Source: Liolophura sinensis
Taxonomy: Eukaryota; Mollusca; Polyplacophora; Chitonida; Chitonidae
Direction: 5' to 3'
Length of the DNA stretch: 64,000 nucleotides
Assembly: GCF_032854445.1 (NCBI RefSeq)
Contig: NC_088307.1
Location: 2,728,001 to 2,792,000, forward strand
Shown: piece by piece, positions 41,901-64,000 of the stretch
Position numbering within the stretch: the first letter of the stretch is position 1
How the letters are laid out: each line of letters opens with the position of its first letter
Translations under genes and position numbers: made by a program
The notes under the pieces: model-generated
Database searches by the model: none
What the model was told of the DNA's origin: nothing
The model's input: the letters and a program-made list of their open reading frames with translations, nothing else

Positions 41901-43716
41901 ATGCCTACTGGTATTTCTTGTCCAGTCCATATACTGTTATAATGACTGTACATGTCTACTGGTATTTCTTGTCCAGTCCATACACTGTTATAATGACTGT
42001 ACATGCCTACTGATATTTCTTGTTCAATCCATATACTGTTATAATGACTGTACATGCCTACTGGTATTTCTTGTCCAGTCCATATACTGTTATATTAACT
42101 GTACATGCCCACTGGTATTTCTTGTTCAATCCATATACTGTTATATTGACTGTACATGCCTACTGGTATTTCTTGTTCAATCCATATACTGTTATAATGA
42201 CTGTACATGCCTACTAGTATTTCTTGTCCGTCCATATACTGTTATAATGACTGTACATGCCTACTGGTATTTCTTGTCCAGTCCATACACTGTTTATAAT
42301 GACTGTACATGCCTACTGGTATTACTTGTCCNNNNNNNNNNNNNNNNNNNNNNNNNNNNNNNNNNNNNNNNNNNNNNNNNNNNNNNNNNNNNNNNNNNNN
42401 NNNNNNNNNNNNNNNNNNNNNNNNNNNNNNNNNNNNNNNNNNNNNNNNNNNNNNNNNNNNNNNNNNNNNNNNNNNNNNNNNNNNNNNNNNNNNNNNNNNN
42501 NNNNNNNNNNNNNNNNNNNNNNNNNNNNNNNCTTGTCCAGTCCATACACTGTTATAATGACTGTACATGCCTACTGGTATGTCTTGTCCAGTCCATACAC
42601 TGTTATAATGACTGTACATGCCCACTGGTATGTCTTGTCCAGTCCATACACTGTTATAATGACTATACATACCTACTGGTATGTCTTGTCCAGTCCATAC
42701 ACTGTTAAATGACTGTACATGCCCACTGGTATGTCTTGTCCAGTCCATACACTGTTATAATGACTATACATGCCACTGGTATGTCTTGTCCAGTCCATAC
42801 ACTGTTATAATGACTGTACATGCCCACTGGTATTTCTTGTTCAATCCATATGCTGTTATAATGACTGTACATGCCTACTGGTATTTCTTGTCCAGTCGAT
42901 ACACTGTTATAATGAGTGTACATGCCTACTGATATTTCTTGTTCAATCCATGTACTGTTATAATGAGTGTACATGCCTACTGATATTTCTTGTTCAATCC
43001 ATATACTGTTATATTGACTGTACATGCCTACTGGTATTTCTTGTTCAATTCATATACTGTTATATTGACTGTACAATGCCTACTACTACTTCAATCCATA
43101 TACTGGGGTATTACATGGGTATTGTAACTGCGAAAAATGAAAGACTCTTTTTGACTCCATATTTTGGCACTTTATTTTGCCATCATCAGAACTGTTCTCC
43201 TGATGATGGCAACATAAAGTGACTTCAAATGAGTCTTCTGTTTTTTCGGAGTTATGTTACTTGTGTATTACGTTAAACTAATCAGTGGAACACAAGGTTT
43301 CTCAGGCATTTTTATCTTATATGAAGTATGAAGTGTTGGGAACAAGATGTTGAGTAAAACCAATATCAATGTTTATGGGGCATTGATGTCAGTAAAGAGG
43401 TCAACAACGCTCATGTGACAGCTTGCGATGTTTAATGTTAATTGAAGACCATTGTTCTTCCATCAGCGTGGGGTGCGTATGTGTGTCTTTATGTCTGAAA
43501 GTTTGTCAGTGACATGCTGAAAGTCAGTGGTTTTACCCAAGCATTCTGTTTCCTTCACCCATAAAACTGAAAAAATATGCTACACTCAAATGAATAAATG
43601 AGTAAGTAAAATAAGTATATGTTTTGTACTCTCCATTTCAGCAAGGAAAGGCAAAATTCGTCTTAATAGGAAGCAAACTCAAAATGATGGAGTCCAGTAG
43701 CAGCGATTCAAATTAA
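9291..43716 (+). CDS. RBM18: RNA-binding protein 18, RRM protein (6 coding exons, one junction unresolved)
   Basis: Single-RRM protein of poorly known function, presumed to bind RNA. Exons: 9291-9302 (MSGL, inferred), 30772-30866, 38726-38852, 39982-40068, 40487-40560, 43642-43716. RNP2 is LWVGNL (residues 25-30) and RNP1 is RGYCFVSY (67-74); [20 protein letters not shown] and WAHA follow, very close to vertebrate RBM18. The last exon encodes [15 protein letters not shown] and ends ...SDSN, matching the family's AIEAKLKMM region with a shorter tail. Exon 1 is chosen because ATG-TCG-GGA-TTG is followed by GTAAGT, its phase fits exon 2, and it faces MRRF. The acceptor-to-donor phases of exons 1-4 agree; exon 5 ends in phase 2, but the homologous frame of exon 6 needs phase 0, so a base is missing or extra, or a micro-exon was missed. 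Intron 1 would be 21.5 kb and contains a heat-shock gene. Confidence 0.9.
9551..9650 (+). repeat. tRNA-like head joined to a 22-bp hairpin
   Basis: A-box-like GGTGGCCAAGTGGTCGCAGA is followed by arms 9591-9612 and 9629-9650, inverted copies of each other with two mismatches around a 16-bp loop. It lies 250 bp into RBM18 intron 1. Confidence 0.7.
9651..11669. other. RBM18 intron 1, no feature recognised
   Basis: AT-rich sequence with short open frames only. I see no domain-bearing exon, tRNA or recognised repeat copy. Confidence 0.5.
11670..14545. repeat. 99-bp satellite array, about 29 copies
   Basis: Head-to-tail units of 99 bp each (for example the same landmark at 11776, 11875 and 11974). 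Each carries TGTACATGTGTACAT, the palindrome CTACAGCTGTAG in most copies, TGGCCTAAGGG (fits a pol III A box) and the short dyad GACCGTCGGTC. Copies differ by a few bases, and runs of neighbouring copies share variants such as GTCCTTCTAAAAG, a sign of recent local duplication. The last unit passes into the SINE-B copy at 14546. Confidence 0.95.
14546..14795 (+). mobile_element. SINE-B copy abutting the 99-bp satellite
   Basis: It matches the copy at 62755-63086: TGCCTTGCTTGGTGCTCGAC, GAGGTTAGAGCAAGGAAACA, TGTCATATGACTGAAA, CAAGCATACATACATA. Its 5' head is the final satellite unit. The middle is altered by a G run. Confidence 0.85.
14861..14942. repeat. (GT)n(AT)n(AC)n(AT)n compound microsatellite
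   Basis: The GT and AC blocks flank an AT block symmetrically, so the locus can fold into a hairpin or cruciform. Confidence 0.95.
14943..16344. other. RBM18 intron 1, no feature recognised
   Basis: No supported gene or repeat. There is a weak local duplication of GGAGARTTCTAGATTTGCA (near 15691 and 15773) and a short poly-T/poly-G run near 16220-16246. Confidence 0.45.
16345..16546 (+). mobile_element. SINE-A copy
   Basis: CTGTATGTGGGAAGGTCTGA, CCTGCGGATGGTCATGGGTT, GTATAAGTGAAACATTCTTA and an (AATA)n tail identify the family. The tRNA-like head is mostly missing. Confidence 0.88.
16547..17733. other. RBM18 intron 1, upstream flank of the heat-shock gene
   Basis: No exon or clear repeat seen apart from poly-T runs near 17550 and 17685. 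Confidence 0.45.
17734..17768 (+). promoter_or_regulatory. Candidate heat-shock element plus TATA box
   Basis: GGAAACTTCTGGAT at 17734-17747 fits three alternating nGAAn units (GAA, TTC, then GAt with one mismatch). TATAAAA follows at 17762-17768. A start about 30 bp downstream would give a 5' UTR of roughly 190 nt before the small heat-shock ORF. The spacing is typical of metazoan hsp promoters; function is inferred. Confidence 0.55.
17983..18603 (+). CDS. Small heat-shock protein, alpha-crystallin family (intronless)
   Basis: ATP-independent chaperone that should hold unfolding proteins in the cytosol as large oligomers. The 206-aa ORF is uninterrupted. The start is the ATG at 17983; the codon just before it is GTG. 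Residues 1-117 are a variable N-terminal arm rich in W, P and H. The alpha-crystallin domain spans about 118-194: [17 protein letters not shown] opens it, [10 protein letters not shown] carries the conserved Arg strand, and [13 protein letters not shown] is the signature end. The C-terminal tail has IPI (201-203), the I-x-I/V motif that docks onto neighbouring domains. A candidate heat-shock element and TATA box lie about 220-250 bp upstream. It sits on the same strand inside the inferred first intron of RBM18. The orthologue name (CRYAB/HSPB-like) cannot be assigned with confidence. Confidence 0.95.
   Translation: MALSRYVPISFEDERDLWRPNLSLEPSWISPQYNRWSLDRSPRFQPHHQHHTDLVPFSNQRLAPIRDFDQELRQLSNNMSRMYQDMLTLVPSKALPTDIHMNEELRMDNPIVTDMNGKKKFQLQFDVRQFRPEEISLTTSDNILTVHACHEEKSEGKSAFREYKRQYTIPPVVSAQALTSKLSHNGILSIEAPVHMSDTMIPIKHQ
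18604..19285. other. 3' flank of the heat-shock gene
   Basis: Probable 3' UTR and intron sequence. No further coding potential was recognised, and no AATAAA is seen close to the stop codon. Confidence 0.4.
19286..19490 (-). mobile_element. MITE-D copy, both ends intact
   Basis: It begins TACCCTAAACGACC and ends GGTCATTTAGGGTA, so the ends are inverted copies and the element is bounded by TA on each side, as expected for Tc1/mariner-type target duplication. The 205 bp between contain no ORF. The interior is in the reverse orientation relative to the copies at 28653 and 44069. Confidence 0.85.
19491..21263. other. RBM18 intron 1, no feature recognised
   Basis: Only short open frames; one near 20442-20852 is poly-T/TCTG-rich and has no domain. 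No tRNA or dispersed repeat was identified. Confidence 0.4.
21264..21390 (+). mobile_element. SINE-E copy (fragment)
   Basis: It contains GCCAAAGGTTGGTGGTTTAC, CACTCCAGTG, AAGTGAAAAAGTTTTGAGTA and TGGCGTTA, the landmarks shared with 23978-24150, 38995-39215 and 43440-43615. Confidence 0.75.
21425..21652 (+). mobile_element. SINE-A copy, B box present
   Basis: GAGTTCAAGTCCAGCTCATG is followed by GGCCGTACGTGGGAAGGTCT, GGATGGTCGTGGGTTTCC, TATAAGTGAAATATTCTTGA and an AAATA tail. This is one of the better preserved copies. Confidence 0.92.
21653..22924. other. RBM18 intron 1, G-rich tract only
   Basis: Nothing coding. A tract at 22405-22436 (GGGGAGGGGGGGGAGGGGG) could form a G-quadruplex. Confidence 0.5.
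22925..23000. repeat. 22-bp tandem repeat, about 3.5 copies
   Basis: Copies of CACTGACAAAGACAGCCAGT plus GC lie head to tail. Confidence 0.93.
23216..23442 (+). mobile_element. SINE-B copy
   Basis: ACTGAGAGGTTAGAGCCAGG, GTCTGGTGTCTTCAGCATGA, CAGTGGTGGCAGCACTTTAG and GCACACCTAATGACTGTTCA match the element at 62755-63086. Confidence 0.88.
23474..23531 (+). mobile_element. SINE-A 3' end fragment
   Basis: Only the terminal module remains: AACATTCTTGAGTACGACGT, AAAATACCGATC and (AAATA)n. Confidence 0.8.
23810..24150 (+). mobile_element. SINE-E copy with tRNA-like head
   Basis: The tRNA-like part has GGTTTTAGAGGCATTAACC and ACGGGTTTAAGTCAAGTC (B-box position). The body follows: GAGGATCATTTGTCTTCCAC, TTTGTCAGTGACTTGCCAAT, GGTTTACACCAGGCACTCCA. 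Confidence 0.7.
24202..24346. repeat. 21-bp tandem repeat, about 7 copies
   Basis: Unit GAGTCCAGGGTCCGTATTTCA, with GTCC/GTTT and TCC/CCC variants. Confidence 0.92.
24529..24707. repeat. 39-bp tandem repeat, 4.5 copies
   Basis: Each unit contains AAGTTGCTTGATAAATACAT followed by GTATGTATATGAAACATGT. Confidence 0.93.
24708..26810. other. RBM18 intron 1, no feature recognised
   Basis: Poly-T-rich (25986-26050) and AT-rich sequence without recognisable exons. Confidence 0.4.
26811..27055 (-). mobile_element. SINE-like family C copy
   Basis: GTGAGTGAGTGAGTG is followed by GGGTTTAACGTCGTAATCAA, TTTTTCAGTCATATGACGAC and a GC-rich body (AAGTAAGCCGCCCCGCCCGA). Its outer end resembles the 3' end of SINE-B in reverse, so the two families probably share a 3' tail. 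It is the only copy in the window. Confidence 0.6.
27056..28039. other. RBM18 intron 1, no feature recognised
   Basis: No coding or repeat signal I can support. Confidence 0.4.
28040..28248 (+). mobile_element. MITE-D copy (degenerate)
   Basis: TCTGTGAGTTCTGTTTATTTTAGAAA-type core, GATGATATTCTACTGGAAAA and a terminal GGACAAAATTTTAGATCATT. The 5' end is worn. Confidence 0.78.
28653..28870 (+). mobile_element. MITE-D copy
   Basis: GTGAGAGTTCTATTGATATA, GATGATATTCTACTGGAAAA, ATATTTTGTGACATTTACTT and the 3' end GACAAAATTTTAGGTCATTT AGGGTA are present. It lies about 50 bp upstream of the 43-bp satellite. Confidence 0.85.
28924..30131. repeat. 43-bp satellite array, 28 copies
   Basis: Head-to-tail 43-bp units containing CTCAGTTCAGCGACATGCAG and GAACTTGACGTCTTACCC. 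Copies are almost identical, with scattered CGACATG/TGACATG and CCATG/CCTTG variants. The array ends 640 bp before RBM18 exon 2. Confidence 0.96.
30132..30771. other. RBM18 intron 1, last part before exon 2
   Basis: Unique-looking sequence with CATGTACATG runs near 30420-30440 and a GT/CT microsatellite near 30443-30463. The exon 2 acceptor follows TCTGTATTTGACAG. Confidence 0.45.
31779..31820. repeat. 9-bp tandem repeat
   Basis: Four to five copies of GAGCTACCT variants; one frame reads [11 protein letters not shown] by chance. Confidence 0.7.
32290..32462 (+). mobile_element. SINE-A copy (degenerate)
   Basis: AGGCCTCTCACAAATGCATT, GTGAGTTTTAAGTCCAGATC and GTATAAGTGAAATATTATCG mark the family. 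Part of the body is deleted. Confidence 0.8.
32600..32762 (+). mobile_element. SINE-A copy, 5' truncated
   Basis: AACTGGGAAGGTCTGCCAGC, CTTTCCTCCCACCATAATGC, a GTATAAATGAAATAC segment and an (AAATA)n tail. It lies about 140 bp after the copy at 32290, in the same direction. Confidence 0.9.
33122..33950. repeat. 60-bp satellite array, about 14 copies
   Basis: Units of exactly 60 bp containing AATGGTACCACTGAGGTGTG and GTGTACCATAATGTTCCC, in RBM18 intron 2. TGGTAC and GTACCA in the same unit are inverted copies. Sixty is a multiple of 3, so a 203-aa repetitive frame is open on the minus strand, but nothing suggests a real protein. Confidence 0.95.
33951..36002. other. RBM18 intron 2, no gene recognised
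   Basis: Contains CATGTACATG runs near 34583-34610 and an imperfect tandem duplication near 35440-35578 (TTTGACAACT, ATAAGACACA, TGATACAA repeated). No exon or dispersed repeat is supported. Confidence 0.45.
36003..37641. repeat. 22-23-bp minisatellite grown inside a MITE-D copy, about 70 units
   Basis: The first 70 bp are the 5' part of MITE-D (TACCTAAGACTTTGTCC, then ACACATTTTGTCTGATTCTG). The sequence then repeats GATGATGTTAGAGAGATGTTCT and GTTGATGTTTATAGAGATGTTCT variants for 1.57 kb. The unit is the MITE's own GTTCTGTTGATGTTAGAAAG segment. Confidence 0.93.
37730..37908 (-). mobile_element. MITE-D copy (minus orientation)
   Basis: AAAAGAAGTGCATTTTTGGG, ACAAAATATTATTTTTGGTG and ATATCATCCCATGTTCCAGT are the reverse complement of the MITE body. 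It lies just beyond the minisatellite, facing the partial copy at 36003. Confidence 0.82.
38459..38683 (-). mobile_element. SINE-A copy directly upstream of RBM18 exon 3
   Basis: Minus-strand landmarks are GAGTTCAAGTCCAGCTCATG and a tRNA-like head ending GCCTCCATGGCC. The head lies about 45 bp from the exon 3 acceptor at 38725; only a CT-rich tract separates them. Confidence 0.88.
38995..39215 (+). mobile_element. SINE-E copy, RBM18 intron 3
   Basis: GGAGATCATTTGTCTTCCAC, CAGTGATTAACCCCAGCCAT, TTTCCTCCACCC and GTGAAAAAGTTTCAGGTATG. Confidence 0.7.
39216..39981. repeat. Imperfect direct duplication upstream of RBM18 exon 4
   Basis: GATTCTTTAAAGACAGAAAT and the following 30 bp occur at 39760 and again at 39881, each after a TTTTATTTTATTGT stretch. 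The remainder (39216-39740) holds nothing I recognise. Confidence 0.7.
40179..40284. repeat. 33-bp inverted repeat (hairpin), RBM18 intron 4
   Basis: Arms 40179-40211 and 40252-40284 are inverted copies with about one mismatch around a 40-bp loop. The arms contain ATTTCGATTTTATTTAAACC and its complement. It may be a short palindromic MITE. Confidence 0.88.
40695..41325. repeat. 43-bp satellite array (CCTTCCATGTACATGTAGTA), about 15 copies
   Basis: Units contain CCTTCCATGTACATGTAGTA and ATATCGTCCAAACTTGTTTA. Three copies lack the nine bases TACATGTAG. It begins about 135 bp after RBM18 exon 5. Confidence 0.94.
41683..43100. repeat. 51-bp satellite array interrupted by an assembly gap
   Basis: Units of 51 bp contain TATAATGACTGTACATGCCT and GGTATTTCTTGTCCAGTCCA. 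Fifty-one is 17 codons, so frames stay open for hundreds of residues on both strands; these are not taken as genes. Copies after the gap carry GGTATGTCTTG and CACTG variants, so the two sides are different sub-blocks. Confidence 0.95.
42332..42531. other. Assembly gap, exactly 200 N
   Basis: A round-number placeholder inside the 51-bp satellite. True array length is unknown. Confidence 0.99.
43127..43250. repeat. Hairpin element (inverted repeat), RBM18 intron 5
   Basis: TGCCATCATCAG and CTGATGATGGCA face each other around AACTGTTCTC, and the pairing extends outward through CACTTTATTT/ACATAAAGTG to AAGACTC/GAGTCTT. The whole behaves as one palindromic element of about 120 bp. Confidence 0.88.
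43440..43615 (+). mobile_element. SINE-E copy, just upstream of RBM18 exon 6
   Basis: AGACCATTGTTCTTCCATCA, GTTTGTCAGTGACATGCTGA, GGTTTTACCCAAGCATTCTG and a GAATAAATGAGTAAGTAAA tail. It ends less than 30 bp before the exon 6 acceptor at 43641. Confidence 0.75.
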
Positions 43717-49414: not shown

Positions 49415-52400
49415 TCATTGTTTTAACTTCACATTGACACTGTCCAGCGCTTCAACAGCCCACTCAGGGTAATCTCCACTTGGAAAGAGTGTTTTAAAAA
49501 AGTCTTGGATAAACTCTGGGAATTTGTCCTCCTTGATGCTTTCTTGTATTTTCGTCATTAGACTCAGCTGCAATGTAAGAAAATAAGGATGCTCAATTTA
49601 CTAACAAGTCATAATAAATCACTCACTTCATCTGTCCTCAAATTTTTTTAAGTTCAAAAGTATATGACAGCTTTTCTTGCTTTTAACTGAAAATGTATTT
49701 CTGAACCCACTCTAGAACACTTCATAGCAGACCATTTGTGGGTTCAGGGCAAAGCATTTCTGGACTCTAGCAAGCATTTTGATTCCATCCAAGCAATCCT
49801 ACACTCCAACAAAGTATTCGTAGACCCCAGCAAAACAGTTTTTTCTGTACCCTCTAACAAAAATATATGAGCCATTTCTGCTAAAATCATATCTTGAATC
49901 TAGCAAAAACAGAAGGGCAGGTGAGAAATTGTATTTAGATGCCTTAAGGCTTACCTGGTAAGCCACATTGTGGATGGTTAGAAGCTGGCAGGCAACTGTT
50001 TCTTGATTAATGATTGAGTGGAGAAAAGCGCGTGTGTAGCGTTGGCAGGTTAGGCATTTGCATGCTTCGTCGATCGAACGGAAGTCTGAGCTGAACGACT
50101 TACTCCTCAGGTTGAGCTGGCCTGTTGCCACAAGGGCAGTTCCAAATCTCTGACAATAAAGCAAGATGCATGTAGATTTTTGACATCATTGATTGTAAAC
50201 AATTCGTCTTGGTTTGATCACATGCAGCTAATAATGAGTTTTGTTTAAAATCCTATCATTACAGTTATTTTGTTACTCGTTCAGCACTGACTGTTGTGCT
50301 CAAGAGTTCTGCACTGTAACATGCTCGTACTTGTGTGATGACTGTCTGGCTTATTGGCAGGTCCTAGAGGAAATCTGCTAACTGCCAAAGTTTGTATAAA
50401 GCCATAGTCAAACCAGTCACAGCATAACCTCCCTGGCAAAATGCCAGGAAAGCTCCAGCAGTAACCATTACTGCCAACAGTGTTGTCATTGTAAAGACAC
50501 ATAAGGGAAACATTATAATGCCGTTTTTGCTAGGAAGACATGATGGGGGAAACCGGTGTTCTTGTTGAAGATATAATGGCTATTTACTTAAGGTAGCTCA
50601 ATAAATTTACAATGAAAATGTTGTTCCCTAAGGTCTTCACAGACAAAACAAAATACAGAGAAACTAAGGGAAAAGATTGCCATTCTGGTTGGCTTTGACA
50701 GTTTGGAAAGGTATGAGAGTTTTCAACAGGGAAACCTACCATTGTTCTGGTTGGGAAGACATCAGATAAACTTATCAATGTACTGGTTGGGAAGACAGGA
50801 AACTTACCGCTGTTCTGGTTGGGTAGACAATGGGGAAACCTACCATTGTACTGGTTGGGAAGACAGTGGGGAAACATACTTCTGTACTAGTTAGGAAGAC
50901 AATTGGGAAAACCTACTGCTGTTCTGGTTGAGAAGACACAATGGGAAAACCTACTGCTGTTCTGGTTGAGAAGACACAATGGGAAAACATTGCTGTTCTG
51001 GTTGGGTAGACAGTTTGGAAACTTGCGACAGTTCTTATTGTGAAGACAATGTGGACACTTGACATGGTACTGGTTTGGAAGACAATGGGGAAACTTACCA
51101 CTGTACTGGTTGGGAAAACATTTGGGAAACATACTACTGTACTGGTTGGGAACACTAAGGGGAAATTTTGTTCTGGGTCAGAAGACAATGGGGAAACTTA
51201 AAACTGTTCTGGCTGGGAAGACAATGGGGAAACTTACCATTGTTCTGATTGAGAAGACGCAATGGGGAAACTTACTGTTGTTCTGGTTGGGGAGATAATG
51301 GGGAAACCTGCTGCTGTTCTGGTTTGCGAAGACAATGGACAAACTTATTGCTGTTTTGGCTGGGAATACAATTGGGAAACTTACCCCTGTTCTGGTTGGG
51401 AAGACACACTGGAGAAATTTATCGCTGTTCTCACTCGGAAGATAATGAGGAAAATTACTCCCTGTCTGGTTGAGAAGACAACTGGGAAACTTACTACTGT
51501 TCTGACTGGGAAGGCACAATGGAGAAACTTACCCCTGTTCTGGGTGGGGAGACAATGAGGAAACTTACCGCTGTTCTCTCTGGAAAGACAATGGTGAAAC
51601 TTACCTCTGTTCTGGATGGGAAGACACAATGGGGAAACTTACCGCTGTTCTGGTTGGGAAGACACAATGGGGAAACTTACCTCTGTTCTGGTTGGGAAGA
51701 CACAATGTGGAAACTACCTTTGTTCTGGATTGGAAGACACAATGGGGAAACTTACCGCTGTTCTGGTTGGGAAGACACAATGGGGAAACTTATCTTTGTT
51801 CTGGTTGGGAAGACACAACGGGGAAACTTATCCCTGTTCTGGTTGGGAAGACACAATGGAGAAACTTATCCCTGTTCTGGTTGGAAAGACACAATTCGGA
51901 AACTTACCGCTGTTCTGGTTCGAAAGAAAATGGAGAAACTTACTGCTGTTCTGGTTGGGAAGACACAATCAAACATATCACAGCCAAGGGCACAGCACAC
52001 CACAAGATCAACAGCAAACCTGAAGAGAAAGAAAATAAACGTGAGAAAGACAGACAGACATTGTATACATGAAAAAGACTAGCTCATTGTTTTAAAGCCA
52101 TTCAGAGAAAAAAGCTTAAGGCCCTCCTTAAAATATTCTTTGTTATCAGAAAAACTACAGTCAGTCTGATGACAACAACAAGAATTTAGAAGAAATTAAA
52201 ATGGGTGACAAAAAAATATAAACATCCATCAAAGTCCCAATGAAAACTTTAGGGTGACTTTTTAGAAGGGTCAGTTGGGTTACACTTCATGAACAAATTT
52301 TCAATGAAGGCCAAACAAATTCTGAGGCCATCCATAAGCTGGCCGCCATCAAATATTAAAGTGAAATAGTCTTGAGTACGGTGTAAAATAACCATCAAAT

Positions 52401-54026
52401 AAATCAAAATACTACTGCACCAAAGTTCAGCAAAAAAGTGATATGAAGTTGCATGTACATGCATGTATTTTTTATCGTCTTTTATAGAAATTAAAGGCAA
52501 AGAAAGAACTAAAATAAAGTATTTATCAGATGCACGACCATTAAACACTGTCCAGGAAATAGAGGATATTGCACAGTGAAGGTTGAATACCATAAATATT
52601 GTTCAAGTGAGAGGTGGAAATGATTACCCACGACACGCGAATCATTGGGTTATCATTTCTACCTTTCACCAGAACAATATTTATGATATTCAACCTTCAC
52701 AGTACAATATTTATATCCTGACATTTCCTCTACAAGTATATAAATGCGTATCAGTTTATCTGTTGCATCTGTGAAAAAATAAGCAATGTGCCATCTTCGT
52801 CGTATTTCTCTGATTCTATTCATATTCTATTCCATTTCGTTCACATCCGCGCTCACAAAACCTTTCTACAGTTTTAAACGCTGTCTGTAAGTAATTATAC
52901 ATTCTACAAAGGTGCTTAATGCTGATGCAATATAGGTATTTACATAAATTATACACATGAAGAATTTCTAACTCTTTTTTTTTTTTGGTGAACTACACAT
53001 TGTGCGGAAGTGCACAGTCGTGGGTCACGGTCAAGGTCTCCAGCAGTGTAATAGCAAAATGTGATAACAAAAGTGATATCTAACTAGTAAAGATATCATT
53101 TTTATCACTGAAGTAAATACTGGGATTTCACTGATGTATAAATAATAAAATAGCTCGATTTATTTTTTAAAAAGTTTTTAAAAACTCAAGTGCATTTAAA
53201 ACATAGGATTCTATGGTATTCTGTTGGGACCTAGAGAGTATCAGAGACGTCACAGCAATATTTTGGCTTGAAACCGTTCATTTAGGTCCATTTGTTGAAT
53301 GCATTCACAGTTCTGAATGACACTGCATTTTGAAAGATGAAATATATCGATCTCTGTGTGTCAAGTGACAAAAAGCTGAGGTGACATCACTGGTCCCAAT
53401 ATGGTCAGAAAAGGGCACAGTAGAATCCAAAGTTTTACATGCATTTTACAAGGTCAAGCAATATTATAAAAAAATAAAATCAAACTATTTTACCAGTAAT
53501 ATTTAATGGTCTTTTATCTGACACGTACTCCACGATAGTGTGTTCTTTGCTTTAACAGGAATAACAGTGGTCACCCTTGGCTGACTTACAGCCACAAGCA
53601 AAGCAGCAAAAGCTAGACTGATGAGGCAATGATGAAGCCGCTGGCAAGGGTTCTGCAGGTTTATGCCTATTCCTATGTCACGCCTAGCTAGATTTAGCTT
53701 TGTTACCATGGTGACTCACCCAACTCCCATGAGGTAGCGAGGTTTGTCGCAAGGGAGGTAATCCGTGGAAAGTGTTACCATTCTCCAGAACTGAGCCTTC
53801 TCCTCACCTCCACTCAATCCACCAATGCAAAGCCTGAGACATCTCGCTTGGTTAACTCTGAATAAAAGCAAATTGTCTGAGGACTGAGAGAGATGTTAAT
53901 GCAGAGGATTGGGAAAGACTTAATGAAGAAATGAATAGCTATAACTAAATCACACAGCAGCAATATTTAAGCTGTTTTGTTTGGAATGGGTTTGTCAAAG
54001 CCACCTCTATCTGATGAAGTTATAGA

Positions 54027-54111
<85 letters not shown>

Positions 54112-57100
54112 GATACCATACACAAGAATTTTACACATATGGTGGTTTGTAAAGAAGTCTGAAATAAGGTACCAAGCTTTGTCATTTTTAAAACAATGGC
54201 CATATTAAGTACTTCTCCATTAATATGACTGTGAAAGACACCTAATAAAACCGCTAACAGATGTGACTGATGAAGGGAGGAATGTCTACCTGACTTCAAT
54301 TTTATCCATGACCATGTGACTAATTTTGTGACTCAGATTCTGAAAGATTTTAGAAAGATTTTTTAAGATTTGGTCTGACGACTGGATGATATACTTTTAG
54401 AAAAGCATATCTCGCTTTAGTCTTAGCACCAAAATAACATTGTGTAAGAAATGGACTTCGGGGTGAAATTTTAGGTAATTGATTGTGTAACGGCGGTCCA
54501 TTTCAATACACTTTCTTCTCTCAATAAGATAAACACCTTCACAAAATTTTACACACATGGACTTCACAGGGGAGTTTTGGAGTTTGAATTCTTTTGTCAT
54601 CAGTTACAGGTAAACACAGTCCAACAATATCATGTCGTTTGTGAAAAATGTTAGGCCACCTTTCTTGATATTAATTTACCAATTACCTGTCTCACCATGT
54701 TCCATCACGAAGTGATCTTAAACTTAAACAGTCAAAATTTCAAATCACCCTAAAACTTATTTTTTTACATAACCAAGGCCAAATACTATGTGACAACTTG
54801 AATTCTGGCTGAGATATTACAAAACAAATTTCAGCTGAAGTAAAGGGAAGGAACATACCAATTTTAATGATTGAAATTTTGACAAATGTCCGAGATCGTT
54901 TCGTGATGCTGGTGCTAGGGGCACAAATGACACCCAGGAAGTTCTCAACTTTACAAATACTTCACTTTCCAATTTTCACCATTGTTTGTCTCATGTAAAT
55001 TAAGTTTTGTTACAGTTACAGTAAATGTGATGAAAAATACTTTTTTGACCTGTCACTTTCTCTACCTTTCTTGATCAAAGAGTCTGAACTTTCTTTCTTC
55101 TCATGAGCCACGTTCTATCGATCCCTGCCTATGAAAAGGTCATAGCTGAACTGCTTACCCTGTGCACATGTCTTCCTTAGCTCTGGGTCAAGCCCTCCCT
55201 GTACGATGGGGAATATGCTTTGGTCATGTGGTCTTCTGTGTGCCTTTAGGCACCTATCTAACCAACGGATTGTTCTAAGAACAAAAAAAAAAACAAAACA
55301 AAAAACAAAAGTGGTATTCATCATTTCTTGTTAACTGACTCCTACCCCATGCATCAAATATCAAGTCAAAATAGTTTTAAAGTAAGAAAAACAACCAGAC
55401 CCCTTTATATATCTACAATTTTCACAACCATGAACAATAGCTTGTACCCAAAAGGTTGTGCTACAGGCTTGTCAGTACTGTTTATGCTGAACTGAATCAG
55501 CATTACAAAAGCATGCAATCCCCATGGAACCTCCATTACCAGCAAATAAAACAAGCATGCACACTGCAGGCCCTGGAAGTCAAGACACCCAGGTGTTACA
55601 ATTAGACATTTTTGGTGCATTAAAAATAGACCTAGTATAAAACATCTTCGAACAAGGTAGCTACTGAAGGTGGAGGTGCCAGGACCATCAAAAACATCTC
55701 TGAACAAGGTAGCCGCTGTAAAAGAAGGTGTCAGGACTACCAAAAACATCTCTGAACAAGGTAGCCACTGTAAAAGAAGGTGACAGGACTACCAAAAACA
55801 TCTCTGAACAAGGTAGCCACTGTAAAAGAAGGTGTCAGGACTACCAAAAACATCTCTGAACAAGGTAGCCACTGTAAAAGAAGGTGTCAGGACTACCAAA
55901 AACATCTCTGAACAAGGTAGCCACTGTAAAAGAAGGTGTCAGGACTAACAAAAACATCTCTGAACAAGGTAACCACTGTAAAAGAAGGTGACAGGACTAC
56001 CAAAAACATCTCTGAACAAGGTAGCCACTGTAAAAGAAGGTGTCAGGACTAACAAAAACATCTCTGAACAAGGTAGCCACTGTAAAGGAAGGTGACAGGA
56101 CTACCAAAAAAAACTGCTGCTTGTGTTATTCAAATCTCATACTGTCAAGCAACAGAATTCTTTAAACCATTATACTTGTTTGAATGGGGTTTAAAATGTG
56201 ATCGTTTCACCTTTAGCAGGTGTTTTTCACTGCCAACAAAATCTTTGGGTTTGCCTTACCAGACTCTCATAGTAAAGACACCAGACATGATGCCACATAC
56301 TTAGTTATTTCTTGGATTCGCAGTTTTACAATGGAAAATGGGCAGAGGCTGATGGAAACCCACCACCATCCACAGGTTGCTAGCAGACTTTCCCATATAT
56401 GACCAGAGAAAAAGTCAGCATGAGCTCGACTTAAACTGGCATCAGCCGCACTGGTAAGAGGCTCCTGAGTCAATATCTTGCACTAGCATGCTAACCACCT
56501 GGCCAACAGAGGACCCCATGATGCCATAGTCCAAGTAGACTGACCATTATTTGGTTTAACCAGTGGCAGACAAGGAAGTATTGTAAACAACAATTTTTAT
56601 GTTGACAGAATAAACCAACAGAGAATCGAACATATTTTCATGCTGGAAATGACACACTCAGGAATCTTTCACTTAAATAAATAATGGTCGAGGGGGGTCT
56701 TCGTGGCTCAGTTGGTTAGCGTGCTAGCACAGTGTAACAACTCAAACCAATCAAATAACAAATGGGTGGAGCAAACTAGAGAGCCTACATTAAACCACCA
56801 ACCTTTGGCAAGTTACTGACAACACCATACTGGTGAAAGATAAGTGGTCTTCAATAAACGTTAGAGTGTAGGAATGGCTCGGCCACGAGCGTTGTCAATC
56901 ACTTACTGCCATGAAGACCCCAGGGACAATGAGAGTGGACGGATCCAGAAACTCACTGTCAATGACCAGGATTAAACCTGTACACTGTGTGCCAGCCATT
57001 GGGAGTTGAGCCTCTCACCACAAAGCAGCATTCCCATTCAACTGAACTCAGGGGCTTGTTTGCATGAAGTGCACTTCAGTGAAGTACAATGCAACACTAA

Positions 57101-60100
57101 AAAACTACTATGACACTGTATGTTGTACGGGATTTGATTCCATAAAAGTATTTTCAGACTCGCCCTAATTCCTCAACCTTTTTGTTTATGAAAGACCAAC
57201 TTTCAGTTAGATTTCTGCATTTTTTTAAATTGATTTTGAAAAACAAGACTACACTGTAATCATGTCCTCAGAATATGTTTGAATAAACACTTTGCAAACA
57301 CGTGAAAAGGTTAAGGAATTACAGTACCGGTGTGTCAAAACTTAAACCCTCTTCACAAAGTTTAGTTTTTGGTACTGGCAGTTGAAATTTTGACTCATCT
57401 GTCTTTAGGATAACATTCAAGAGGTAAGTTTAAGACTGTATGTCGAGTTTTCACTTCACTCAGAAAAGGATTCGTGGAATCAGCCATTGCTATGAAGAGC
57501 ACTCAGCTAAGGGCTATTTAACACTATGTACACTTCATGAAACTGGCACCTGGCCTCATGCTTAGGATCGCAGGATCTCAACAGCACATCACAAGCTGAT
57601 CAAACCAAATATCTTTCACTAGTGAGGAGGCAGAAGAGTTCCACATTCACCTGTTCATAGCTTCCTCCACCCTGGGGCCTGTAGTTGTACTGTGTACTAC
57701 ATCATCCAGCTGCATTATGATATCAGCGCCTGTAACAAGTTTAAGACATGTATATACAGGTGTCCTCCAGTCTTAAGTCATGGCCTTCAGGAAAGGGCAT
57801 GGTGAGAACATCATACACTAACTACCACTACTGCCAAGATACACTACCTTTGAATTTATTTGATTTTAGAAAAAATCTATAGCATTACAGAATATCTGAG
57901 CATCATGGCTCTTAACATTCTACTTATTTATATATTTTGTGTTTGGCGCAATATTCACAAAACTTTGTTGGAATCAAGTTTATGCGTAGAGCTCACAAAA
58001 ATTGAAAAATTATTTCAACCAGTAAACATGGTAAATTGTGACACATAATGTCTATTTATTTTAGAATTTCAGCTGATATACAGATGATGTATTATTGATT
58101 CTTTTCACAAAATAGAACTGCATATACTGCTTCTTTTTGTTCATGTGCTTTTACCAGGTTCATGTATTGTTATAGATTGGCCTCTGGGAAGATCATCTTG
58201 TACAATTTGAAGATTTCATTATTTATTCATAGACGAAATGGTCCGAGAGTGCCAGGGGCAAACTACCACATTTCATCACATGTGTCTGATAAACGCCCTG
58301 ACTTAATTCTGTAGACAAAACAGCGTGAGAGGGATCTGAACCTGTGACTTCTAAGGTCTTGGAGCCACCAGCTGGAACTAGAACATTCCTTGGCCCCTGG
58401 TCATGTTAAGAAATTACAGATAGAATATTTACTGTTATACCAATAGAATTCTGTATTTCTATGGATTTTTCTGGAGTAAGCATCATCATGGAGCCGTCAT
58501 GGGGGGACTCGAACTGCACCCCTTCCTCAGTAATCTCTGCCAGCTTCAGCAAGGACACCATTTGAAACCCCCCACTGTCCTGAAACAGGAAGGCGAACAA
58601 ATCAATTCATAATTAATTCTTGGTTAATGCCTCATAATTGTTCCATTCCATGTCCTGTCAGGATTAGGCCATACCAAGTTTATTTCATGTATCAGGGAAA
58701 ATCGACATTAAAAAACACAAAAAAGAAATAAAAACAAATCTAAAAAAATACATTTTCATTTTGTTTAATCTTTATGTTTTTATCATTTTCCTGTTTATCA
58801 AGGCTTTCCGATCATGTAAATATGTCTTAAACAGGAAAAATTACCAAGATGATCCGCATATTCCAGATTTAAACTTACAATTCTCTTTCAGCATCATTGA
58901 ATTACATCAGGAGAGTTCATTCCCACCCTGATGAGCAATATATTTTCTACAAGACTGAAGTTCGAAGTTTATTCTAAAGTGCTCAGTGCACAGGTATACA
59001 CAAGGCAATGTTCTAATATACATAACATGAACAACTTGCACAGGTGTGAAATTAATGCACAATATTACATGATTACAGTTGACGGAACGTTGATCAAGGT
59101 TACCACAATCAGTCAATCAAATCAATCTGTCATATAGCTACTTACTGTGAGGAGAGCTCTGTCCCATTTCATGAACTCGTGTAAGCCACCCGCCTTCTCC
59201 AACAACTCGGGGCCCTGTATGTATTAAACATATTTACAATATACACAATATCGTATAACAGTCAGTTTGCATTTATTTATCTATTTATTTATTTGATTGG
59301 TGTTTCACGTCATAGTCGAAAATATTTCACTTATACAACAATGGCCAGCATGATGATGGGAGGAAACCAGGCACAGCCCTGGGGAAACCCACGACCATCC
59401 ACAGGTAGATGGCAGACCTTAATTGCCACGTAGGACCAGAGAGGAAGACAACACCAGCTGGACTTTAACTCACAGCTTCCACATTGATTTGAGGATTCTA
59501 GTTCATCAATATAATTGTGCTGTCATAGCATGCTAACCAAGTTTGAATATGTGACATAATAGCTAGTACACATCCATGTTTACTATGATATGCTCTTACC
59601 ACGATTGAGACTGATTTATCTGACTGTTGTTTTGCACCATTATGACTCAAGAATTACCTTGGTTATTCTGTAACAGCTAGCTGGTAGGCGTATGTAACAA
59701 TGGACTATACATATATTATAGTTTCGGTGTGAATACATATATCCTGAGAAATCACAGACTGAGAATTGTACAGTTGTGTACGCAACACCATAAACTTTAC
59801 AACCTCCTAGTTCTGTTTAATATTAAAGATTCTGTGTTTTATTGTTCTGTGTCAACATACCATATGCCATATACTTTTGTATGGGATTAGTTTAACTCTC
59901 CCATAACTATTAATTCACAATTAAAGTGTTTTTAAATATTTAATAAATAGTCACTAAACTGATTGTGATTAAAAATATCCCAATTTGTCAGGCAAGAAGT
60001 ACATGTAATCTATATATACCGGCCTGTGCCCCAGATGGTAGGTGTTTCCTAGCATTATTTTGCAACCTAGAGCTTTCAGTTGCTCAGGTAGCAATCCTTT

Positions 60101-60250
60101 CAGGGTTCCCTGGGTGCCGACCGGCATAAACACAGGTGTGTCCACTACAGCATGAGGTAGAGTCAGTTCACTCGTTCGGGCTTTCGTAGTTGAACATTCT
60201 GCTATAACACGAAATGTGAGAGCCGACGCACGTGTAGCCGCCAAAGCCAT
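49415..60250 (-). CDS. QTRT1: Queuine tRNA-ribosyltransferase catalytic subunit (9 coding exons, one 1-nt frameshift in this assembly)
   Basis: Known role: with QTRT2 it exchanges guanine-34 for queuine in tRNAs with GUN anticodons. Exons (minus strand): 60250-60020, 59214-59146, 58579-58441, 57729-57651, 55274-55159, 53857-53720, 52019-51944, 50149-49955, 49567-49415. Phases all agree once one missing base in exon 6 is allowed, giving 398 aa (human about 403). Visible motifs: [24 protein letters not shown] with the base-binding Asp (residue 101); [27 protein letters not shown] with the nucleophile Asp 275; and the zinc site CKCLTC plus TIHN (Cys 313, 315, 318, His 343). Exon 6 reads TTTGCATTGGTGGA where FAIGG needs one more base near 53825-53827, probably an assembly error since everything else is intact. 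Intron 7 is filled with copies of the exon 7 end. Confidence 0.96.
50727..51964 (-). repeat. 38-bp minisatellite made of the QTRT1 exon 7 / intron 7 junction, about 33 copies
   Basis: On the minus strand each unit is roughly TTTCCCCATT, then TGTGTCTTCCCAACCAGAAC, then AGCGGTAAG. The real exon 7 ends with the same GTGTCTTCCCAACCAGAACA GCA followed by GTAAGTTTC. So the repeats copy the last 25 or so coding bases (CVFPTRTA) and the 5' splice site. The unit is 38 bp, with 35-36-bp variants lacking CAC; a sub-block near 50750-51170 reads AGTACAGTGG instead of AGAACAGCG. The array starts at the true exon and continues into intron 7. Confidence 0.93.
52330..52405 (+). mobile_element. SINE-A 3' fragment, QTRT1 intron 6
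   Basis: AAGCTGGCCGCCATCAAATA, AAGTGAAATAGTCTTGAGTA, CGGTGTAAAATAACCATC and an AAATA tail. Confidence 0.8.
52406..53719. other. QTRT1 intron 6, no gene recognised
   Basis: A short inverted pair occurs at 52573-52600 and 52676-52700 (AATATTGTTC-type arms around GTTGAAT/ATTCAAC). No other feature can be supported. Confidence 0.45.
54030..54103. repeat. (AT)n microsatellite
   Basis: About 36 uninterrupted AT dinucleotides in QTRT1 intron 5. Confidence 0.98.
54287..54487 (+). mobile_element. MITE-D copy (degenerate), QTRT1 intron 5
   Basis: TACCTGACTTCAATTTTATC, GATTCTGAAAGATTTTAGAA, CTGGATGATATACTTTTAGA and GTGAAATTTTAGGTAATTGA. Confidence 0.75.
54488..55158. other. QTRT1 intron 5, no feature recognised
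   Basis: AT-rich sequence without exon or repeat signals that I can support. Confidence 0.4.
55655..56103. repeat. 52-bp tandem repeat, about 8.5 copies
   Basis: Units contain GGTAGCCACTGTAAAAGAAG, then GTGTCAGGACTACCAAAAAC, then ATCTCTGAACAA. Located in QTRT1 intron 4. Confidence 0.95.
56325..56517 (-). mobile_element. SINE-A copy (minus orientation)
   Basis: Minus-strand head GGTCCTCTGTTGGCCAGGTG, then TTAGCATGC, GAGCCTCTTACCAGTGCGGC and GTGGATGGTGGTGGGTTTCC. The 3' end is missing. Confidence 0.87.
56694..56745 (+). mobile_element. SINE-A 5' tRNA-like head only
   Basis: TCTTCGTGGCTCAGTTGGTT then AGCGTGCTAGCACAGTGTAA; A box TGGCTCAGTTGG. The body is absent and sequence resembling SINE-E in reverse follows, so this is a junction of two elements. 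Confidence 0.7.
56750..57010 (-). mobile_element. SINE-E-like copy (minus orientation)
   Basis: AAACCACCAACCTTTGGCAA, GTTACTGACAA and a tRNA-like region near 56900-57010 match the family in reverse. Confidence 0.55.
59271..59542 (-). mobile_element. SINE-A copy, near full length, QTRT1 intron 1
   Basis: TTATTTATTTGATTGGTGTT, AATATTTCACTTATACAACA, GAGGAAACCAGGCACAGCCC, GAAACCCACGACCATCCACA and the worn tRNA-like head up to AGCATGCTAACC. Confidence 0.92.
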
Positions 60251-60352: not shown

Positions 60353-61845
60353 ATGGCGGATTCCAGCGCGGCTGGGGCTTACAGGGATGTGAACTGTAAT
60401 GAACCAGCGATAAAATGGAAGCCATTGTCTATGACGTTTGTGGAGTATCCAGCAGGTAAGTGGTGCTGCGTATATCTACAGCGGAACTCTGCGTTCGCTC
60501 TGAGATTGGACGTAAATCAGGCGTAATCGGGTGCTTGTCAAGGTGGCATTACAACAACAACAACAGTAGGATTGCTCACCCAGTAATTTATGCCACGCAT
60601 ATGGCACAGTGTTTTTCTAGCCCCTGGCATTAACCAAGAGGGGATCGTCTGACATTTACCAAAGCGCTTACACATTGTTGTAGCGCTGAACAAAAGCCAT
60701 GGGGATTCCCTATGATTTAGTCAGATGGAGACAACTTGCTCTCACTGATATTGGCCACGCTTAGGACTGAAGTTAGAACATTGCAAGGGAAACTCAAGGG
60801 ACTGATTCAGATGAAAGTGCTTGTTCATGCATACACAGGCTTTCATTCCACACTTCTGCTCCTATGATACTGGGGATTTTAGTCTAGCATTCTGTAGCAC
60901 GTGTAAGATGTGTGTTTTTATGTACTACTTGATATCAGAGTTAAGATTTAGACGTTTCCCTATAGTATATCAGCATGTTGCAGCACAGTGCCATCTCCTT
61001 ATCCTATTCCTCCAATCTAGAAGTGGTTTTCTTCTTTTTGATTTTAAAACTTTTCCAACAGTTTGTCAGCAGTGAAAATACTTTATAACAACATTATGAC
61101 AGTTTATTGACATTATAACTGATCACATCATTTATGAATTAACTGTACTAAATGCACGTGAAAATCTCTGTGGAGGATGAAAAATGGTTCAAAAATGGCC
61201 ATTTATAGAAGTTTGGTCAACAGTCATGGCTCTTTCGTAATAATATAACACTTGATATAATAACTGATAAAATCATTTACCAGTTAACTGTATTAAATAT
61301 GAAAGTCTGAAAATCTCTGTGAAGGATAAAAAGGATCCCTGATTGCAAATGGCAATGCAGATACATATGATCAGTAACCGTTGCTCTCTCTTTATTACAA
61401 AAGCTAAATAAGGACTTATCAAGGAAGGTTGTCATCTGCTTTGAGCCAGATCACTGCCCTGCTTTGAACTAGATCACCCCCCCCCCCCCCCATCTTCCAA
61501 ATTAGGCCTGTTAATCCTCAATAGTACAATCCACAATACCATTCATTCACCCTGTAGGTATGTACTAATTTCTGTTGTATACCATTTTGCGTTTTACAGG
61601 AGATTTCATTGGTTTTGTGCTGGCTTGGTTCAGCATGATCCCAATCTTTCTACTGGTCAGTTTTGGTACATTAATTATCTTCAGACGAGATCTTCATACA
61701 GTAAGTGTACACATCATTTTAGTACAAGTGTGTAAAAATGTATGTATCTTTAAAATTGAAACACTACAGTAAATCAAAATGAATAAGCTTCCTGTAGGAA
61801 AATTGATACAAATATACCATTTCTGGGAAAGTTTTTTAAAACCTT

Positions 61846-61884
<39 letters not shown>

Positions 61885-63750
61885 TCTTATATTTGTAATT
61901 TTTAAAATTTTGTTTATATTTTCAGATGTCATATTTACTAGGTTTATTACTAAATGAAGTTGTTAACTGGATTCTGAAACATATAATCAGAGAAAGTCGG
62001 CCATTAAGAGGTAAGAATAAGATAATGAGAGACTCGAGGACAAGCTACACAGACAGTCCAAATGCTAGTAGAATGCAACACTTTCCTGTGTGACGTTTCA
62101 GTGTGTGTGTATTTCATTTATGTTTTATGACCACACATACGCTGATAATTGTGACATAATAAAGGAAAGAACAAATCACAACTTTAAAGATCACAACTTT
62201 AGACAGTCTTGATGCAGGCGGCAAGGGGTTTTACGAGTTTTCCATTGAGGTAAAACCTCTGCCACTGAAAAAAACAATAAAGCTTGGTGTACACGGGAGC
62301 TTAAGACCCTATTTAATTCAATTCTGCTACTGCATGTCACCAGTGGCATGTAAAACCTGACTGCTACAGAAAAGACTAGTATGTAATAATACAAGTCTGA
62401 AAATGGGTACCTGGCATTTTGGCAAACACTCTGTGAAGAAGGTGGTGACCCATATTGTCAGTGTTATGTGATACTGGATCATGGTTTACTTGGTCCAGTT
62501 GTGCTGTAAATCTTTAACTGTTTCGACTTCTAAAGCACTTTTTCAGTGAAATTTTTGTATGCTATTATTATTAAAAGTGATCTGTTTGTGTCACTATAGA
62601 TGCAAGTTTCATAAAACTGATTAAAAGATTATTTGTGTACACCCCATAGCTCTCTCAGAATGTTTCAAAATATTTGTCGAAGAGGTGGTTGAAATGCTTG
62701 AAAAACTATGATACATGGTTAACATTTGTGGTACCATTTTCTCCAATTTAGTGTTTTACCACTTCAGCCTGGAAGTCTAGAGACCCCGGGATCAAACCTG
62801 GGTCAGGTCATAACAAAGACTTTAGAAGTGGTAGTTGATGCTGCCTTGCTTGGCGCTCAGAACTGAGAGGTTAGAGCAAGGAAACAAGACTGATTGGCCT
62901 GGTGTCAGTATAATGTGACTGGGTGGGGTGTCATGTCTGTAGTCTTCAGCATGATATTTCAGTGGTGGCAGCACTTTGGCGACATGGACTCGCCCTGCCA
63001 CAAGAAGACACACCTAATGACTCTTCGTCATCATATGACTAAAAAAATTGTTAAGTACAACAATAAACTCCAAGCATACATACATAAACATATCAAAGGG
63101 GTGTTTTCAAAAATTTCTGACTCCAATTTTTCAAAAGTGAGGATTAAGTCATGAGTAGGCTCAAGGTAAACATCATTAGCACTTGAAAGAAAAAAGAATT
63201 GTTTAATTTTGATGCACTAGAATCAGACCAATCACAACCATTACTTGATTGAATGCTGCCGTTTCTTTGATATTAAACTTGAAAATGTTACCGTACTGCT
63301 TTGATCTACTGTGCTGTATCAAACTCTTGGTATTGGACACCCGATGGTGATTAGAAGTCAGTAACATTCTTGTCTGCCGATCTCTGTTGTTGGCCAAGAT
63401 GTATAGTCTACCCTTGTTCACACAAATGGCCCTTCATCATTGATGTTGCCAGTTTTATTTCAGCCTCTGTTCTTCTTTTTCACGTGTGATTTCACGTGAG
63501 CTCTGTCTGCTTTCCTCCACCCTTAAAAGGTGGCCACCATCATAAAAGTAAAATACTCTTGGACACATCCCAATTTACCAGTGATCGGTATGTCACTACT
63601 TGTGTGTGTGTGTGTGTGTTTATATATGTATATTATTCTGTTCTCTGTTCCAGATCACCAAATATTGTTCACAGAGTATGGAATGCCCTCTTCACATACT
63701 CAGCTCATGTTTTTTGCTGCCTCCTATTTTGTCTTATTTGTTTTTATACG
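60353..63750 (+). CDS. DOLPP1: Dolichyldiphosphatase 1, N-terminal half (4 exons, continues beyond the window)
   Basis: Known role: an ER membrane enzyme of the PAP2 family that removes a phosphate from dolichyl pyrophosphate on the lumenal face so the lipid can be reused for N-glycosylation. Exons 60353-60455, 61600-61700, 61926-62010 and 63654-63750 join in phase to give 128 residues plus two bases. FVEYPAGD matches vertebrate DOLPP1; residues 38-60 and 70-85 are hydrophobic membrane segments; K-x6-R-P (Lys 86 to Pro 94, KHIIRESRP) is phosphatase motif 1; EYGMPSSH (104-111) is motif 2, with PSSH as in this subfamily instead of PSGH. Motif 3 (SR-x5-H) and the rest of the protein must lie to the right. 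Human length is about 238 aa. Confidence 0.95.
60526..61599. other. DOLPP1 intron 1, no feature recognised
   Basis: Contains a repeated AACTGATMAMATCATTTAYSA motif (near 61118 and 61262) and a run of C (61479-61492). Nothing else is supported. Confidence 0.45.
61847..61872. repeat. (AT)n microsatellite, DOLPP1 intron 2
   Basis: About 12 AT dinucleotides. Confidence 0.95.
62755..63086 (+). mobile_element. SINE-B copy, most complete in the window
   Basis: The head has CACTTCAGCCTGGAAGTCTA and GGGATCAAACCTGGGTC (B-box position). The body follows: GCTGCCTTGCTTGGCGCTCA, CTTCAGCATGATATTTCAGT, CCACAAGAAGACACACC, TCATCATATGAC and CAAGCATACATACATAA. It lies in DOLPP1 intron 3. Confidence 0.88.
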
Positions 63751-63883
63751 GTAAGATTGATAAGCATGTGTTAACAAAAATGGAATTGTTCTTGTTAGGA
63801 TGTATCGATGTACTTGAATTGATTTTTTAAAAAAGTATATGGTGTATGTACCACACCACCCATAAACTTGACACTGTTTTATG

Positions 63884-64000
63884 TGAAAGTGCCCATGCAA
63901 TATTCTCAATAAGTGCCAATGCAATATTCCCAATAAGTGCCAATGCAATATTCCTGATAAGTACCAATGCAATATTCCCAATAAATACCAATGCTATATT
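63884..64000. repeat. 24-bp tandem repeat, running off the window
   Basis: About five copies of CCAATGCAATATTCCCAATA plus AGTG, in DOLPP1 intron 4. The true end is outside the window. Confidence 0.93.

Follow-up and report, generated by a model that had tools for sequence, protein, structure and literature searches.

The window analysed here, 64,000 nucleotides of contig NC_088307.1 of the chiton Liolophura sinensis, holds a predicted nine-exon QTRT1 gene on the minus strand and, at 60386..64000 on the plus strand, the 5' part of a DOLPP1-like gene recognized with Pfam. The joined peptide of QTRT1 exons 7 and 8 matched mammalian QTRT1 chains (E 1.7e-35), with bacterial TGT chains also matching the exon 7 peptide, less closely, and Pfam TGT matched the same gene at 6.9e-34. 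A tblastn search with a bacterial TGT sequence recovered exons 1, 2, 3, 6, 7, 8, and 9 in order, exons 2 (E 0.023) and 9 (E 0.62) weakly; exon 5 came from the Pfam TGT match, and the exon 4 peptide was read by eye from the frames. All on the minus strand, the exons lie at 60020..60211 (exon 1, conserved part, also in the Pfam match), 59146..59214 (exon 2), 58439..58579 (exon 3, approximate, no strong donor identified), 57651..57729 (exon 4, approximate), 55159..55274 (exon 5, approximate), 53720..53826 (exon 6, conserved part), 51944..52019 (exon 7), 49955..50149 (exon 8, acceptor TTATTGTCAG/AGATTT, a slash here and below marking the splice boundary), and 49418..49567 (exon 9, the last coding exon). 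Exon 7 reads GTTTGCTG...AACAGCA, encodes 25 residues, and was delimited by the mammalian QTRT1 match, tblastn, and a donor matrix. The number 7, of nine, for the array-bearing exon and the exon 8 start at 50149 both hold as given in the initial annotation. The Asp of the MFDCV motif in QTRT1 we take to be the catalytic nucleophile.

A tandem array spans the boundary of exon 7 and intron 7 (50729-51969, minus strand), and its TRF score of 1064 excludes a chance arrangement. Wrap-around alignment resolved 34 units, namely, exon 7's own unit and 33 diverged copies (50727..51932, minus strand, mostly 38 or 36 bp), with each copy carrying the last 26 or so coding bases together with the 5' splice site. 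The founder unit comprises the last 26 bases of the exon (ATTGTGTCTTCCCAACCAGAACAGCA, 51944..51969, minus strand), GTAAGTTTC, and a few further intron bases. An array of about 33 copies beginning at the real exon had been noted from the letters alone, and the first unit is indeed the exon end CVFPTRTA followed by GTAAGTTTC. The span then given, 50727-51964, captured the array, with limits that TRF corrects to 50729-51969, and the 38-bp unit length described holds for 13 of 34 units, the rest being 36 bp (12/34, mostly lacking one TG) or 31-37 bp (the other 9). The supposed change of the Asp codon GAT to CAT in the copies was a misreading: the repeat begins at the A of GAT (51969), a G occupies that place in 0/33 copies, and because the G lay outside the unit from the start, CAT is the joint between units rather than a mutated codon.

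The mean pairwise identity between units is 0.71. The farther a unit lies from the exon, the less it resembles it (Spearman -0.36, P 0.04). Adjacent units barely exceed remote ones in mutual identity, with means of 0.74 at lag 1 versus 0.69-0.72 at lags 2-11 and no overall trend (Spearman -0.04, P 0.35); the local homogenization expected under concerted evolution of the array is weak. An nhmmer profile recovered 34/34 units, a circular result given that it was built from those units, and pointed to possible decayed outlying units at 50506..50569 on the minus strand (E 0.06 and 3.2, neither good enough for inclusion). Judged by eye, CCAACCAG in the units has the look of a 3' splice site.

Donors were scored with a simple matrix of base frequencies. 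On this scale the authentic 5' splice site, GCA/GTAAGTTTC with a weak A at -1 (51935..51943, minus strand), scores 6.05 versus 10.1 for the first decoy, GCG/GTAAGTTTC (51899..51907, minus strand), and the array contains 14 decoys that equal or exceed the authentic donor, up to a maximum of 11.6. The background is 288 sites reaching the authentic score on both strands of window positions 1-50700, which corresponds to about 3.5 expected in the 1,217 bases of the array. In-register GT is retained in 21/33 copies, a count that excludes units 16, 17, 24, and 26 with GT out of register (25 with them), and is lost in 12/33, units 2-4 among them. GTAAG is kept in 13/33 copies and so not, as had been thought, in most units, and the "dozens of decoy donors" proposed at the outset reduce to the 21 GT sites and the 14 high-scoring ones. 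It had also been argued that use of a decoy would usually shift the reading frame, which is correct in general; the first decoy, however, lies 36 nt downstream in frame and would add 12 amino acids, and an in-frame stop (51866..51868, minus strand), met on read-through after 25 intron-derived codons, precedes every later decoy. With so strong a first decoy in frame, error-free splicing of QTRT1 would be difficult to explain if no further signals contributed.

Similar arrays occur in neighboring genes. We surveyed 164 kb of contig C13, made up of the window and its flanks (coordinates remain window-based), where TRF found 74 arrays with a period of at least 18 covering about 44 kb, or 27% (small overlaps counted twice). 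Four further exon junctions in three genes carry copies, all outside the window: CRAT (identified by Pfam and PDB) twice, a PHYHD1-like gene, and the DOLPP1-like gene; the names DOLPP1 and PHYHD1, and MRRF and RBM18 below, are ones we assume from family matches and human sequences. In CRAT-A (L034, 87879-88375, minus strand), TRF shows some seven 68-bp copies after an exon ending QLAYYR, and five decoys equal the authentic donor CAG/GTGAGT at 88354 in score, with one slightly lower and one weak. In CRAT-B (L033-L034, 81201-85206, minus strand; C13:2809201-2813206), TRF shows, after an exon ending LSTSQ, a 4-kb array of 95- and 306-bp units copying the donor; at least 6 decoys, among the 15 of 38 sites listed, equal the founder donor CAG/GTGAGC at 85179, and GT is lost in the first copies after the exon. 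On read-through, CRAT-A meets a stop immediately and CRAT-B does so 2 codons later.

The remaining two junctions are acceptors. The PHYHD1-like exon FKEDGYVVLDNFL (L037, -14886 to -14471, plus strand; TRF list and Pfam) is preceded by acceptor copies, with six matches to TTCACAG/TTCAAGG of which the last is the real acceptor; the exon matched Pfam PhyH at 2.2e-5, and a PDB search with it gave no match. The exon 6 acceptor of the DOLPP1-like gene is present in two 62-bp copies with 95% matches (L006:2525-2651, TRF) and is a young two-copy case; the joined peptide matched Pfam PAP2 at 1.7e-14, exon 6 alone reached 0.0076, below the cut-off, and PDB offered a distant match only. Both boundary types are thus affected, donors in QTRT1 and twice in CRAT, acceptors in the DOLPP1-like and PHYHD1-like genes, and in all five cases the array extends into the intron while the authentic site stays next to the exon, as predicted by purifying selection on the exon.

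Other arrays near exons were set aside. A PPT2-like exon (L039, -35553 to -35400, minus strand), probably real from its matches to Pfam (E 0.017) and PDB 1pja (E 0.016), is preceded by a 38-bp array that weakly repeats the acceptor region; this array holds little or no exon sequence, and the acceptor fails the 24-nt test described below. A 24-bp array before the first CRAT coding exon (L035, 99845-100041, minus strand) repeats an acceptor-like motif weakly and was not counted. The 43-bp array at 28925-30131 contains GGTAAG, and its edges meet no recognizable exon.

Recurrence was examined for 24 exons of the 164-kb region. For each exon, the 24 nt spanning a candidate splice site, with at most two donors and two acceptors taken, were compared with 1.4 kb of the adjoining intron side. 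Five of the 24 (QTRT1 exon 7, CRAT 88354, CRAT 85179, DOLPP1-like exon 6, and the PHYHD1-like exon) have a junction copy with 0-3 mismatches. Among the 24 exons, QTRT1 exon 7 was given beforehand, and the three CRAT exons, the PHYHD1-like exon, and the PPT2-like exon had come to notice by their own arrays. The remaining sites had 8-12 mismatches, except two that lie in arrays, a GT neighboring that of CRAT-A (6) and, in the PPT2-like exon, a second acceptor-like site (5); reversed-sequence controls gave 5-12. Less biased counts are 1/7 for the DOLPP1-like exons (the repeat there was nevertheless first noticed in the TRF list), 0/8 for the other QTRT1 exons, 0/3 for MRRF and RBM18, and 1/19 for ABC-transporter loci, about 2/37 exons in total with a wide error.

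The ABC-transporter survey, made elsewhere in the genome, scored 19 exon loci out of 173 first-look candidates. At one of them (L053, C1:89874318-89877527, minus strand), blastn (E 1.2e-9) finds an exact 23/23 copy of ...FDEPTR/GTAA in the intron, 64 bp downstream; in the 24-nt test this locus had 5 mismatches, equal to the lowest reversed control, and TRF alone found a junction-spanning array in 0/19 of these loci. Locus L055 (0-2 mismatches) was not counted: the GTs concerned belong to an array within the intron, beginning some 13 nt past the exon, and the two donors scored did not include the likely one. An automatic screen of the 74 arrays returned 19 candidate rows: 4 known exons (QTRT1, CRAT-A, the first CRAT exon, and the DOLPP1-like one), 3 alternative versions of the arrays in the DOLPP1-like and PHYHD1-like genes, 2 that spanned the N gap and went unscanned, 1 dropped as too short (19 residues), and 9 scanned with Pfam, the PPT2-like exon among them, none of which reached the cut-off. 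The screen missed CRAT-B and the true PHYHD1-like reading, both found by eye in the TRF list.

Taken together, we consider the QTRT1 array to be probably a junction-spanning minisatellite, or "mirage," born at random by tandem duplication at the exon 7/intron 7 boundary, nearly neutral, and tolerated by splicing. A segment of about 38 bp straddling that boundary would have been duplicated in tandem, and slippage or unequal exchange would then have lengthened the array, solely toward the intron, since selection would purge any expansion damaging the exon. Repeat birth is common in this chiton genome and would land at random. The splicing machinery, presumably through exon definition, would keep exclusively to the exon-proximal site, and rare errors may be removed by nonsense-mediated decay; with that site in use and most mis-spliced products carrying early stops, the arrays could persist as nearly neutral passengers. 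If seeds were placed at random, the expected number of arrays spanning a junction, obtained by multiplying the summed unit length (4506) by the junction density, would be 1.7-4.1 when 60-150 junctions are assumed, versus the 5 seen. The probability of five or more is 0.03 at 60 junctions, 0.07 at 80, and 0.12 at 95 (range 0.03-0.40), so special targeting, while conceivable, is not needed.

It is conceivable, and in our view unlikely, that the array is functional, with decoys used. The first would give an in-frame 12-residue QTRT1 isoform, or else expression level would be tuned through unproductive transcripts. The frame of the decoy at 51907, its matrix score, and the position of all later decoys past the stop speak for this reading. 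The human interferon-induced transcript 6-16/IFI6, going by the title of a paper cited in PMC2572611, has a minisatellite with multiple splice donor sites; to that extent it resembles QTRT1 as a gene with a repeat carrying splice donors, and its donors would be used, whereas the QTRT1 decoys are known as sequence. However, the insert would fall in the TRTA-RFG stretch, which is identical in mammalian QTRT1, the loss of in-register GT in a third or so of the copies (12/33) includes units 2-4, and the amphioxus cases discussed below are reported, in the available text, without aberrant mRNA (PMC3087553, PMC3902484).

Splice junctions could instead be hot spots for repeat birth through transcription, R-loops, or splice-linked breakage, and the excess of junction arrays over the random expectation, with two of them in one gene, leans that way. 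The excess is, however, not significant for most assumed junction counts, and the CRAT and PHYHD1-like exons entered the count via their arrays, which makes such targeting quite improbable next to random, nearly neutral birth.

That the QTRT1 array is an assembly artefact seems very improbable. The one 200-N gap in the window (42332-42531) does fall inside an array, a different one with a 51-bp unit, but the QTRT1 array has no N at all, its units differ mutually as described above, and the assembly was built, according to the portion of the report available, from HiFi reads at 14X (PMC11068029). The same source gives the species as Liolophura japonica, a name later corrected to L. sinensis (PMC12441733). 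The mitochondrial gene order in the assembly is the one usual for chitons.

The initial annotation had placed the origin of the unit at the QTRT1 exon-intron junction and named dispersed copies as the observation that would speak against it; we looked for them genome-wide and found none. As a pattern with up to 3 mismatches in the whole 609-Mb genome, the unit gave 5/5 matches inside the QTRT1 array, and a whole-genome DNA search with a 151-base query gave 12/12 there, counts that are lower bounds, as that search skips very common words. The coding part is common to mammalian QTRT1, and exon 7 is therefore the source of the unit; derivation of the exon from the repeat is rejected, as the exon peptide has matches in mammalian QTRT1 and, at a greater distance, in bacterial TGT. 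The region is rich in tandem repeats, but a dispersed satellite or mobile element that landed beside exon 7, with its likeness to the exon secondary, would be expected to have copies at many loci. The confinement of the unit to one locus, if not absolute given the skipped words, and its shared coding sequence leave that origin a negligible chance.

A junction minisatellite of this kind has precedents. In amphioxus, mirages are described, in the accessible parts of the reports, for Adh3, the globins BflGb6 and BflGb9, troponin C, and PGBD5, at 5' and 3' boundaries, with units of about 10-160 bp, AG/GT kept in many, possible length polymorphism and somatic instability, and splicing left undisturbed (PMC3087553, PMC3902484). 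Judged by sequence and set against those partial descriptions, the chiton arrays match them in structure: the QTRT1 unit spans the exon-intron boundary, splice dinucleotides are partly retained (in-register GT as counted above, 21/33), and donor and acceptor boundaries are both affected in the genome. They differ in belonging to a mollusc rather than a cephalochordate, in the 33 QTRT1 copies and several arrays within 164 kb, and in being known from one assembly. This suggests, within what those sources cover, that mirages extend to a second animal phylum, and genomes with a high birth rate of tandem repeats may have many of them. A full-text literature search on repeats, splice sites, and minisatellites, with a coverage that mostly excludes subscription papers, found no mollusc mirage. 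In the text available, the intron minisatellites of an earthworm metallothionein gene, where exon 4 duplications are absent from the transcript (PMC12783039), and an abalone intron minisatellite (PMC6905558) are not called junction repeats, and the term "tandem repeat" does not appear in the accessible part of a chiton genome comparison (PMC12005716).

How one site is chosen from a set of near-identical donors is a question for which the chiton arrays offer a natural test, with decoys that, on the simple matrix, fall below, match, or exceed the true site in strength (five equal in CRAT-A, 14 at or above it in QTRT1). Such splice-site choice has usually been studied in engineered genes. Introns, moreover, are said to be gained by internal tandem duplication (ascribed to Rogers, 1989, and to Gao and Lynch, 2009, both cited in PMC3087553), a process like that at QTRT1 in that the duplicated segment contains splice signals and unlike it in that the QTRT1 intron pre-exists and the copies lie inside it. 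Gene predictors could be misled by these arrays, from which new introns or exons could also originate. A broader and rather doubtful proposal is that chitons continuously seed junction minisatellites, at about 1 exon in 20, from two copies (DOLPP1-like, ABC transporter) to dozens (QTRT1, CRAT), and that some decoys, such as the in-frame first QTRT1 donor, are used, which would make the arrays a live source of donors, mini-exons, and unproductive isoforms varying between individuals. Public RNA-seq data exist for the species under BioProject PRJNA973839, according to the genome report (PMC11068029).

Elsewhere in the window, Rfam and tRNA scans found nothing, and an array at 11680-14538 consists of 29 copies of a 99-bp unit (96% matches), part of which looks tRNA/SINE-like by eye, with no tRNA called by ARAGORN. 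Outside it, contig G000:C99 carries at least 7 mitochondrial COX1 copies and is likely an assembled mitochondrial concatemer.
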